Below, piece by piece: positions 15,152-30,218 of a stretch of DNA of 64,000 nt (positions within the stretch are counted from its first letter, which is position 1; every line of letters begins with the position of its first letter). The notes under the pieces are model-generated. The model saw nothing but the letters and a program-made list of their open reading frames with translations. It was not told where the DNA came from and did not search any database. The position numbers were made by a program, and so were the translations under genes. Source of the stretch: Nitrospira sp. (GTDB lineage: Bacteria; Nitrospirota; Nitrospiria; Nitrospirales; Nitrospiraceae); NCBI GenBank assembly GCA_022226935.1, contig CP092081.1, positions 1,571,332 to 1,635,331 on the forward strand, given 5' to 3'.

Positions 15152-15180
15152 TTGACAAGATTTTTGAGGGGGCGTAGATA
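15152..15180 (+). promoter_or_regulatory. Sigma70-type promoter of tiny-ORF unit A
   Basis: A perfect -35 TTGACA at 15152-15157, a 17-nt spacer, and a -10 TAGATA at 15175-15180. It begins 24 bp after the DUF4412 stop, so the downstream unit is independently transcribed. Confidence 0.65.
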
Positions 15181-15286
15181 GAGTTGGCGGCCCGAATTTT
15201 CCTTGTCTCAAGTGGAAGACCGGACAGACCGCGCGGCTGCCATCTAGATCTTCCACACATTCCCGCCACAGAGAGGAGGGTGGACG

Positions 15287-15331
15287 ATGACCGATACCAC
15301 GCCACCTGGCCTGTACGGCCTGTCGAATTGA
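15287..15331 (+). CDS. 14-residue ORF of tandem unit A
   Basis: ATG 15287 is preceded by GAGGAGGG with good spacing and opens a 14-codon frame, MTDTTPPGLYGLSN, ending at TGA 15329-15331. It begins about 107 nt after the promoter at 15152-15180. A related unit 517 bp further on has the same layout and a peptide with TPP at the same position. After the stop both units keep related sequence (GGCGG, then TCGTCGGT). No function is known. It may be a translated micropeptide, or part of a dual-function RNA of about 0.4 kb. Confidence 0.5.
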   Translation: MTDTTPPGLYGLSN

Positions 15332-15560
15332 AGGCGGTTTTCTCGTCGGTGTTGCCCAAGTTTTCCATCGCAGATGCCACAAGGCATTCCACGATGCGTC
15401 AAATGCGCATTCCGGCGCCATGCCACTGAGTGGGGAGCTTGGTTGACGACCGTGAAGCGTCACCCGCGTGAGTGTGATCGCTAGTTCCCCGGCGAGATGT
15501 CTTCCGCTGTTGATCAACTCGGCAGGTCTTGTGCGGGCCGCCTACATACACAAAGCCTTC

Positions 15561-15610
15561 GGCGTCCTAAGCGCCACACGCGGGCTCCCGTCAGGCACGG
15601 GGGCCCGTGT
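15561..15610 (+). terminator. Hairpin pair ending unit A
   Basis: GGCGTCCTAAGCGCC (15561-15575) folds as a 4-bp stem with loop TCCTAAG. It is followed by an imperfect GC-rich hairpin at 15576-15610 with ACACG/CGTGT at its base. The same small hairpin precedes the terminator of unit B. There is no strong T-run here. Confidence 0.5.
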
Positions 15611-15673
15611 TGTATGGGGACCTTCACGGCAGACACGAGATATGGGGAAAAATGACTAGGGCCGATTTTCTTG

Positions 15674-15702
15674 TTGACAGAGTTTTCTAACGAGCGTAAG
15701 AG
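15674..15702 (+). promoter_or_regulatory. Sigma70-type promoter of tiny-ORF unit B
   Basis: TTGACA at 15674-15679, a 17-nt spacer, and TAAGAG at 15697-15702. The -35, the spacing and the following G/T-rich bases resemble the unit A promoter. Confidence 0.6.
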
Positions 15703-15803
15703 GGAAATTGTAAGCTTCAAAGACTGTGTTAACCGTGACGAGGCGATGAACAGTGCGCGCCTGTTCGTGGACCTCGCCACTCCTCAACCGGGGAGGTTCA
15801 CGC

Positions 15804-15848
15804 ATGGAAGAACTTACGCCGCCGGACTGCAACGGCCCGCAGAGTTGA
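15804..15848 (+). CDS. 14-residue ORF of tandem unit B
   Basis: ATG 15804 follows GGGGAGG with 7-nt spacing. The frame reads MEELTPPDCNGPQS and ends at TGA 15846-15848, exactly the same length as its counterpart in unit A. Both have TPP at positions 5-7 and a Gly at position 11. The coding DNA shares ACGCC-CC-GG and ACGGCC at equivalent places. After the stop, GGCGG and TCGTCGGT are kept, and in this copy TCGGTC/GACCGA forms a perfect hairpin. Function unknown. Confidence 0.5.
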   Translation: MEELTPPDCNGPQS

Positions 15849-16060
15849 GGGCGGGCTGATCGTCGGTCGTGCTGACCGATCCTTCCCTGGCTTGTGTCTC
15901 ATGACACTATCCGATCCAGGATAACAGCCACTGCAGAACGAAGGATTGAAGACAAGCACGAGGCACACCAGCATCCTGGGAATAACGTTCCCCCGACGAA
16001 CATCCTGATCATCCATCTGCTCGAACGGGTCTGGTCTGTCGGACAACCTATTTGACTGTA

Positions 16061-16117
16061 GGCGTCCCAAGCGCCAACCACGGGCGACCTCCCACCGCAG
16101 TGTAGGGTCGCCCGTGG
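16061..16117 (+). terminator. Hairpin plus intrinsic terminator ending unit B
   Basis: GGCGTCCCAAGCGCC (16061-16075) repeats the small hairpin of unit A. Directly after it CCACGGGCGACC (16078-16089) pairs perfectly with GGTCGCCCGTGG (16106-16117), a 12-bp stem followed by cattttaa. Unit B would give an RNA of roughly 410 nt. Confidence 0.7.
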
Positions 16118-16353
16118 CATTTTAAGCGAAGAATTTATTGACGTCTTGTTCTCTCCCCTTCCTTCAGCTGATGCCTCACCGTCCACCTCATGCTTGGACG
16201 AGGCTGCGGTAAGTGTGTTGGTCCACCATGTTGATCGAAATGGTGTCCGACCTGGTTCCCGGTCTCTTCATCCGCTCACAAAGGAAAGTGCGCCCCCTGT
16301 AAAGCAGCCTGCAGGAAGATCAGCGCGCGCTGTGAGAGCCGTCGGCGTGGCGA

Positions 16354-18252: not shown

Positions 18253-20115
18253 ATGAGTGACAGAGCCCAGGTGGCGCTCGTCAACATGCCCTTCAGTTTT
18301 TCGAAGTACCCGTCCATTCAATTGGGTACGCTGTCTGCGTTATTGAAAGCCAAGGGCGTCGCGGTCGATTGTCACCACCTCAATGTGCGGTTTGCCCACA
18401 AGATCGGAATTCCTCTCTACGAATCGATTTGTGAAAAGCGGGGGTTGTTCGGCGAATGGCTGTTCTCTTACCTGCTCTTTCGTGACAATCCCAAACGGGC
18501 GGAGTATCCGCGCGTGTTTAAGCCGGTCTTCGAGCAGATAGCTCGGGAGAGCGGTCAGCCGGTGTCGTTCTTTGAAGACATGGCCACGCGCACGGCGCCA
18601 CAATTCCTGACCGCCGCGATGACAGGAATTGATTGGGATCAATATAAGCTCGTCGGGTTTACGTCCACCTTTGATCAAAATGTGGCCAGCCTCACGATGG
18701 CCAAGCTGATCAAAGATCTGTATCCGGACGTGAAGATCGTGTTCGGTGGCGCCAATTTTGATGGCGAGATGGGGCTGGAATATTTCCGGGCGTTTCCGTT
18801 CATCGACTACGTGGTCGTCGGCGAAGGAGAGGTCACGTTCCCGGCGCTGGTCGACTACGTCATGCGTGGATCGGGCGGGCCCTGCCCGACAGGCGTTATC
18901 TACCGGGAGCATGGCGAGGCCAGGCTCGAGCCGAATACGGCCCTGTTCACCGGGTTTGCCCAGACCGGCCCGCCGGACTATGACGACTACTATCATTTGT
19001 TGGCTGAACTCGGCACCGAAGCCTCCCGCGGCCTGGACCGTATTCTCCTCTATGAAGGCTCACGCGGTTGCTGGTGGGGCGAGAAGCATCATTGCACCTT
19101 CTGCGGGCTGAATGCGCAGAGCATGAAGTTCCGCTCGAAATCTGCGGAACAGGTCGCGCAAGAAATGGCGTACCTCTCGAGCCGCTACGATACGACTCGC
19201 TTCCGTCTGGTGGATAACATCATCGACATGAAATATGTCGATAATCTGTTCGGGCAGTTCGCGACCGAGCATTGCGATCTGGATGTGTTTATCGAGACCA
19301 AGAGCAATCTGCAGAAGAGTCAGATCCGGACGCTGGCTGTCGGGGGCGTGAAGTGTATGCAACCCGGCCTGGAAAGCCTCAGTCTCTCGCAGTTGAAAGC
19401 GATGGACAAAGGCGTGACGCCCATGCAGAACATCATCTGTCTGAAGTGGAGTTGTTATTACCGGGTGGCGGTTTCCTGGAATATTCTGCTTGGTTTTCCC
19501 GGTGAAACGAACGAAGACTATCGCCGGCAGATTGATCTTCTGCCGTCCCTGTTTCATTTGCAGGCGCCGGAGGCGACCGGGAAGTTCTGGTTGCAGCGGT
19601 TCAGTCCCTACTTTACGCGACCGCATGAGTACGGCGTGCGCATCACTGGTCCTGGTACAGCCTATGAGTATGTGTACGATGCGGCGCGTGTCGATCTGCA
19701 GAAGATCGCCTATGATTTTGAGTATGAGCTCGACGACTGGCCGGTGGATCCGCAGGTCTACCAGGAATTGATCGGCTTGGTGGAGGAATGGCAGCGACGG
19801 GCGCGCAGCAACGATCGGCCGTTCTTATATTTCTCCAAGGCCATGGAGTACGTGACAATTTATGATGGGCGTGATCCGGAGATGCCGACGAGACGACGGT
19901 ATGACTGGCCTGCGGCAGGCATTATCGAAGCGTGCAATGAAGCGGCGAAGAGCCGCGACCAGATTCGCACGGCATTGAAGGATGCAAAGCCCGACCTCAC
20001 CTGCTCGGATGAAGACCTGACTCAGGCGCTGAGTATTTTGACGAGTCGTCGCATCCTCTACGAAGAGCGCGGGAAGTACTTCACGTTAGCCATCCCCGAG
20101 CATCCCTACTACTGA
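18253..20115 (+). CDS. B12-binding radical SAM protein, RiPP-maturation C-methyltransferase-like
   Basis: 620-residue enzyme with an N-terminal cobalamin-binding domain (VALVNMPFSFSKYPSIQLG, then VGFTSTFDQN and KIVFGGANFDG) and a radical SAM domain. The cluster motif is unusual: EGSRGCWWGEKHHCTFCG, with the three Cys of C-x7-C-x2-C. This variant with GLNAQSMKFRSKS after it is characteristic of the RiPP maturation radical SAM protein 1 group, whose members methylate unactivated carbons in peptides. A winged-helix-like C-terminus follows. No precursor-peptide gene is evident next to it. The convergent neighbour is a carboxymuconolactone-decarboxylase-family protein. The start has GAGGTGG upstream. 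Confidence 0.85.
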   Translation: MSDRAQVALVNMPFSFSKYPSIQLGTLSALLKAKGVAVDCHHLNVRFAHKIGIPLYESICEKRGLFGEWLFSYLLFRDNPKRAEYPRVFKPVFEQIARESGQPVSFFEDMATRTAPQFLTAAMTGIDWDQYKLVGFTSTFDQNVASLTMAKLIKDLYPDVKIVFGGANFDGEMGLEYFRAFPFIDYVVVGEGEVTFPALVDYVMRGSGGPCPTGVIYREHGEARLEPNTALFTGFAQTGPPDYDDYYHLLAELGTEASRGLDRILLYEGSRGCWWGEKHHCTFCGLNAQSMKFRSKSAEQVAQEMAYLSSRYDTTRFRLVDNIIDMKYVDNLFGQFATEHCDLDVFIETKSNLQKSQIRTLAVGGVKCMQPGLESLSLSQLKAMDKGVTPMQNIICLKWSCYYRVAVSWNILLGFPGETNEDYRRQIDLLPSLFHLQAPEATGKFWLQRFSPYFTRPHEYGVRITGPGTAYEYVYDAARVDLQKIAYDFEYELDDWPVDPQVYQELIGLVEEWQRRARSNDRPFLYFSKAMEYVTIYDGRDPEMPTRRRYDWPAAGIIEACNEAAKSRDQIRTALKDAKPDLTCSDEDLTQALSILTSRRILYEERGKYFTLAIPEHPYY

Positions 20116-30131: not shown

Positions 30132-30218
30132 GCCGAAGTGGCGGAACTGGCAGACGCACTGGTTTCAGGTACCAGCGCCCGTAAGGGTATCCGGGTTCAA
30201 CTCCCGGCTTCGGCACCA
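30132..30218 (+). tRNA. tRNA-Leu (anticodon CAG)
   Basis: Acceptor strands GCCGAAG (30132-30138) and CTTCGGC (30208-30214), discriminator A and an encoded CCA. The anticodon loop TTCAGGT at 30164-30170 gives CAG at 30166-30168, between CTGGT and ACCAG. A long variable arm and GGTTCAA T-loop fit class II leucine tRNA. Its 3' end is the integration target of the following elements. Confidence 0.96.
30200..30218 (+). repeat. attL: tRNA 3' end, first of three copies
   Basis: The 19 bp ACTCCCGGCTTCGGCACCA are identical to 45154-45172 and nearly repeated at 49369-49385. The copy here is part of the intact tRNA gene. Confidence 0.88.

Follow-up and report, generated by a model that had tools for sequence, protein, structure and literature searches.

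Two short stretches of the same layout follow each other in the 64-kb window (the whole stretch of DNA that was analyzed), and they raise the question of whether their product is a peptide, an RNA, or an RNA that makes use of its own translation. In the preliminary description, they were paralogous transcription units, each encoding a 14-residue TPP peptide. Judging from covariance model and BLAST searches, both units are members of an undescribed family of ~0.4-kb folded RNAs, known so far only from Nitrospira and its relatives. We consider it about an even call that each unit acts as a separate RNA, the fold of which would be gated by a pause sensor of eight codons.

Architecture and distribution of the units

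By inspection of the sequence, each unit (15152-15615 and 15674-16123) runs from a promoter through an RBS, a TPP mini-ORF and a GGCGUCCnAAGCGCC hairpin to a terminator; the TTGACA boxes with 17-nt spacers, GGAGG sites, ORFs, hairpins and terminators described earlier are all in place, and the units are indeed paralogous. The predicted features are as follows:

15152-15180, + strand: unit 1 promoter (TTGACA 15152-15157, spacer of 17 nt, TAGATA 15175-15180)
15187-15193, + strand: unit 1 closing helix, 5' strand GCGGCCC, pairing with 15535-15541
15212-15256, + strand: unit 1 5' hairpin, GUGGAAGA...UCUUCCAC, with inner CAG/CUG
15275-15279, + strand: unit 1 RBS, GGAGG
15287-15331, + strand: unit 1 mini-ORF MTDTTPPGLYGLSN, with coding selection on codons 1-8 (15287-15310)
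15342-15349, + strand: unit 1 long-range helix, 5' strand CUCGUCGG, partner CCGGCGAG
15489-15496, + strand: unit 1 long-range helix, 3' strand CCGGCGAG, partner CUCGUCGG
15535-15541, + strand: unit 1 closing helix, 3' strand GGGCCGC, which can close unit 1 with GCGGCCC
15561-15575, + strand: unit 1 hairpin GGCGTCCTAAGCGCC, i.e., GGCG-UCCUAAG-CGCC
15576-15615 (end approximate), + strand: unit 1 intrinsic terminator
15674-15702, + strand: unit 2 promoter (TTGACA 15674-15679, spacer of 17 nt, TAAGAG 15697-15702)
15740-15778, + strand: unit 2 5' hairpin, GGCGA/UCGCC and GAACAG/CUGUUC
15792-15796, + strand: unit 2 RBS, GGAGG
15804-15848, + strand: unit 2 mini-ORF MEELTPPDCNGPQS, with TGC at codon 9, a stop in most relatives
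15833-15858, + strand: unit 2 helix CGGCCCGC/GCGGGCUG, beginning at ORF nt 30, 5 nt past codon 8
15860-15866, + strand: unit 2 long-range helix, 5' strand UCGUCGG, partner CCGACGA
15993-15999, + strand: unit 2 long-range helix, 3' strand CCGACGA, partner UCGUCGG
16061-16075, + strand: unit 2 hairpin GGCGTCCCAAGCGCC, i.e., GGCG-UCCCAAG-CGCC
16078-16123, + strand: unit 2 intrinsic terminator, CCACGGGCGACC/GGUCGCCCGUGG followed by UUUU

The 4.23-Mb genome contains exactly two matches to the hairpin string GGCGTCCYAAGCGCC and exactly two to the pattern of the RBS with ATG..CCNCC, all of them at these units, with 0 matches in the control; thus, the units are not chance resemblances. A DNA search of the same genome for further copies returned one second match only, at chance level. 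Promoter-like and terminator-like elements are retained in the copies examined by sequence comparison, from which a transcript is predicted, and family comparison found TTGACN with a similar -10 box upstream of nearly all copies. It should be noted that CTAGGGCCGAT, located just 5' of the TTGACA of unit 2 (15658-15668), is nearly invariant across the genus and is possibly the site of a regulator.

BLAST locates both units at the corresponding position in about 27 of 28 genomes of the genus (identity of 73-89%), and partial copies were detected in other genera. Using a covariance model of 140 positions, we detected copies in 86 of 296 Nitrospirota genomes and in 47 of 61 close relatives; thus, the copies in relatives that the earlier proposal called for do exist. 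Family f1, to which the window belongs, carries the element widely, often as two unlinked copies, and families f2 and f3 gave weaker matches. An exact degenerate pattern of the RBS and ORF start occurs in 58 stretches among 84,980 species genomes: 53 of these are in Nitrospira/Nitrospirota, and the other five (Rhizobium, Streptomyces, Actinomadura, Nocardioides and Rhodospirillales) are near chance level, since we estimate one or two chance matches per scan. This distribution marks the family as restricted to one lineage. No family of Rfam release 15 reaches its gathering score at either unit, the best match scoring 19.4 bits (chance level) versus a threshold of 80; at E-value thresholds, nothing rose above threshold at the units. 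In a literature search, the family turned up in no paper.

Coding selection and RNA structure

Statistics of the ORF were calculated for model matches picked without regard to the peptide (168 matches, with the ATG aligned in 164; 110 nonredundant copies). They replace earlier codon statistics on copies chosen by a peptide regular expression, which were biased by that selection. The consensus of the conserved start (codons 1-8) is M-x-[D/E]-x-[T/S]-P-P-[D/G]. An RBS-like stretch lies upstream of the ATG in 163 of the 164 aligned copies. Pro-Pro occupies codons 6-7 in 160 of the 164 aligned matches and in 107 of the 110 nonredundant ones, a retention that is partly selected for because the CCACC bases were present in the copies used to build the model. 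One copy has lost PP; in two same-genus genomes, a 2-nt insertion breaks the PP frame of third-locus copies (L076 and L077), which are probably decaying. An acidic residue (E or D) occupies codon 2 in 69 of 110 copies and codon 3 in 105 of 110. Codon 8 encodes D or G in 100 of the 107 nonredundant PP copies and neither in the other seven, with G, not D, in about half of copies.

For the 110 nonredundant copies, the entropies at the first, second and third positions are 0.31, 0.13 and 1.51 in codon 3; 0.21, 0.07 and 0.80 in codon 6; and 0.15, 0.07 and 1.40 in codon 7. The third position of these codons is thus far more variable than the first two, i.e., there is a three-base periodicity, and translation of the ORF is predicted from coding periodicity in codons 3-7 and from the RBS-like stretches. 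Past codon 8, conservation is of the RNA type: codons 9-10 are free, codons 11-13 (GGC CCG CCG) are most conserved at pairing bases, and the third-position entropy of codon 11 is 0.07. The position of the stop varies (codon 9, 15, 24 or elsewhere/later). For example, most same-genus copies of unit 2 have TAG or TAA as their ninth codon and read MEELTPPD-stop; the ORF has 23 codons in other genera, and distant copies read, e.g., MEDLSPPDHNGPPSHGRASRQSR. At codon 9 of unit 2 (15828-15830), we also observed TAC or CAN in some relatives, with TGC in the window. The end of the third-position pattern at codon 8 and the scattered stops identify the conserved translated unit as eight codons, the 14-residue length in the window being incidental. 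The PP start of the peptide first described is conserved and its length is not. A 14-residue micropeptide as the product is not supported, as coding selection ends at codon 8 and neither the length nor the sequence of the C-terminus is conserved.

A purely noncoding structured RNA, in which the RBS and ATG are by-products of structure, is highly improbable. The RBS has possible pairing partners in codons 5-7 (UCCACC) or 3-4 (GACCUC), and the helices are well supported; such an RNA does not account for the periodicity at codons 3, 6 and 7, for an RBS-to-ATG spacing that is maintained across indels, or for an in-frame extra codon in one copy (L100, MKEDLSPPD). The codon periodicity contradicts this explanation.

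The helices themselves are supported by compensatory changes. In CCCGCC/GGCGGG, GGUUCUCC/GGAGAACC and GUGCC/GGCAC, standard pairs fill 93.1% of cells, compared to 37-51% when the strands are slid, and 26 helix cells are changed on both sides (shuffles, 9.9 on average; slid controls, 2-10). These changes identify the bases kept after the stop as strands of RNA helices, not peptide; the conservation of that stretch, reported earlier, is real, and it is not conservation of peptide. Selection on both the ORF and the RNA, proposed at the outset, is borne out by substitutions that respect both, with variation at third positions and compensation in helices. The outer stem of the unit 1 5' hairpin has two-sided changes between genomes (GGAAGA/UCUUCC and GGGAGA/UCUCCC), and a closing-helix complement of at least 6 bp is found in 44 of 50 class-A copies, compared to 19 in the shuffled control. 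Of the 110 nonredundant copies, 83 have the GGCG-UCCYAAG-CGCC hairpin 244-281 nt past the ATG, with the loop UCCYAAG in 74. Pairing of the loop GGUUCUCCA with the RBS or start codon was considered and dropped, since this loop has its pairing partner in GGAGAACC further downstream, the two showing compensatory changes. By eye only, we noted that GACCGCGCG could pair over a long range with the 3' CGNGCGGGUC box.

Among stems starting in ORF nt 25-48, the 5' arm of the best one falls at nt 30-33 in 79 of the 110 copies, including distant ones, and in most of those 79 the helix starts 5-6 nt past codon 8. This spacing is supportive, not conclusive, because shuffled sequence matched or beat the real local stem in 33 of 110 copies and unit 1 of the window has no good stem in this region.

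Genomic context and alternative explanations

The gene next to the units in the window, a GDPD gene, is on the opposite strand, and the window holds no same-strand gene close downstream before 17268, where a CBS protein starts. In several other genera, the class-A neighbor (GDPD or permease) is also on the opposite strand. Elsewhere, the element is found 210-500 nt upstream of same-strand genes. According to names given from reading translations, with no family search, the downstream same-strand genes encode a universal stress protein (USP; L075, L078, L079, L094 and L151), a ClpX-like zinc-finger protein (L071 and L072) or a CBS protein (L096, L101, L102 and L109), and deaminase/ROK genes follow the element in some relatives. 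Among the neighbors of the element, we saw no Mg2+ transporter gene. A tmRNA cut off by the window start (1-286) and a tRNA (30132-30215) are also present in the window.

Many class-B copies are followed, after a good RBS, by a membrane peptide of 26-27 residues with a single helix (MDSTFLMFASVMLAIFIGGLVVYKKSQ-like), located ~380-450 nt past the mini-ORF start in L064, L066, L068, L070, L093, L113, L114 and L117. In other genera (e.g., L031, L060, L070, L096 and L109), a GGCAY-N5-TTATGC box lies ~140-180 nt upstream of the ORF; in most copies, TTGACA follows the box at a distance of 48-50 nt. The box, absent in the window, resembles in sequence a sigma-54 promoter (GG-N10-GC) or an imperfect palindromic operator.

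If the element were a cis-acting leader or attenuator of a downstream gene, the window copies would be orphaned leaders. The same-strand arrangements upstream of USP, ClpX-like, CBS, membrane-peptide and deaminase/ROK genes are what such a leader predicts, as are the USP and ClpX-like copies, which lack the UCCYAAG hairpin. Conversely, the units are kept in nearly all same-genus genomes with the next gene on the opposite strand, as it is in the window and several genera, and a terminator precedes the gene in many class-B copies. We regard the leader explanation as unlikely. The early statement that simple attenuation is improbable holds for the window; it does not extend to the few relatives in which the element, without the hairpin, is directly upstream of a same-strand gene.

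Another alternative is that the ORFs encode RiPP precursor peptides matured by the B12-dependent radical-SAM C-methyltransferase (TIGR03975), which is encoded at full length ~2 kb downstream of the units (18253-20115) and is also found near class-A copies in other genera. A precursor is expected to keep its core peptide, yet the C-terminal part is not conserved and is often absent past codon 8, and class-B and class-C copies are located elsewhere. In addition, the enzyme, which exceeds the cut-off in 51 of 61 genomes searched, is full length in nine genomes with no RNA match (G016, G038, G040, G041, G052, G054, G056, G058 and G059), and two genomes with the RNA (G011 and G057) have no match over the enzyme cut-off. 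With no conserved C-terminal core and the RNA and enzyme uncoupled both ways, we rejected this explanation, the chance of which is close to nil, and with it the early suggestion that the peptides are substrates of a maturation enzyme.

A dual-function RNA of ~0.4 kb fits best among the options listed in the preliminary description. In its usual form, the 3' part would pair with target mRNAs in trans, the mini-ORF would make a short peptide or only protect the RNA, and pausing would be incidental. The units stand alone with their own promoters and terminators; the nearly invariant (within the genus) loop of the unit 2 terminator and the UCCYAAG loop are possible seeds or protein sites. In one genome (G007, locus L028), a transposase-like insertion between the units leaves both intact, which suggests that they work independently. 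A functional peptide fits poorly with coding selection that covers only codons 1-8, is centered on PP and leaves the C-terminus unconserved. We see a possible but doubtful case for this explanation.

A proposed ribosome-pausing ORF and comparison with known systems

In the pause-sensor model, it is the codons 1-8 that matter: they look as if built for ribosome pausing, which might make the RNA a sensor of how translation is proceeding. A ribosome would load at the strong RBS and translate M-x-[D/E]-x-[T/S]-P-P-[D/G]; with Pro7 in the P site and Asp8/Gly8 in the A site, it would pause or drop off, in the manner of PPX motifs under limiting EF-P and of the first codons of MgtL, which are acidic and rich in proline. 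In the absence of EF-P, ribosomes pause at sequences that include PPD and PPG, although most PPX motifs need no EF-P in vivo (PMC4140641). During the pause, the helix GGCCCGCC/GGCGGGCU would be 5-6 nt past the A-site codon. The RNA would fold differently depending on whether the ribosome had paused, passed or been lost, with the helix past codon 10 coupling the state of the ribosome to the fold, and the fold would set the fate or activity of the 3' part with its long-range helices, UCCYAAG hairpin and terminator. Copies upstream of USP or ClpX-like genes might act on the downstream gene, whereas the window copies, with no close same-strand gene, might act in trans. We infer from sequence comparison each of these events, from transcription and translation to the pause, the fold switch, the targets and every downstream effect. 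A bolder version is rather unlikely: a stand-alone, trans-acting RNA gated by a ribosome paused on its own Pro-Pro-Asp/Gly sensor. Such an RNA would not be the leader of one gene; it would act either as a free-standing readout of the state of translation (EF-P, EttA, Mg2+ or energy) or as a trap for ribosomes.

Among known systems, MgtL offers one comparison. Acidic and proline codons at the very start of this leader ORF can stall or release ribosomes, tuned by Mg2+ and EttA (PMC11282234), and, in the available part of PMC6460261, deletion of efp raises mgtA mRNA via the proline codons of mgtL. The likeness lies in a very short ORF near the RNA 5' end, acidic residues and prolines in the first codons, and the expected stall or destabilization of early ribosomes (PMC11282234, PMC6460261); the relevant factors, EF-P and EttA, are encoded in the genome of the window. 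However, MgtL has an interspersed EPDP, whereas the units have a fixed PP[D/G] at codons 6-8. MgtL controls mgtA in cis via Rho, whereas the units are a different structured RNA with intrinsic terminators and mostly stand alone; a position in the 5' leader of a controlled gene is not found in the window, only in some relatives.

Dual-function small RNAs with a short ORF include SgrS/SgrT and Spot 42/SpfP. They resemble the units in being stand-alone transcripts (predicted here) of a few hundred nucleotides with their own promoter, RBS, short ORF, structure and intrinsic terminator; unlike them, the units conserve only eight codons, centered on the pause motif, and do not keep the peptide end. 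The tandem-ORF attenuator of mgtCBR, as presented in the available part of PMC3641672, also has short ORFs in a long leader, where translation is expected to decide the fold; however, the units have no downstream operon in the window, and their RNA fold and ORF sequence are unrelated to it. The families of Rfam release 15 are structured RNAs like the units, but none matches them at its gathering score. Nitrospira are major nitrite oxidizers, and an RNA family conserved to this degree has no Rfam entry. If the pause model is true, the family would be an MgtL-like nascent-chain sensor uncoupled from a fixed downstream gene and reused as a module, either stand-alone or before stress genes. The units would then allow the joint action of a pause motif and a helix at the leading edge of the ribosome to be tested cleanly in a natural setting.
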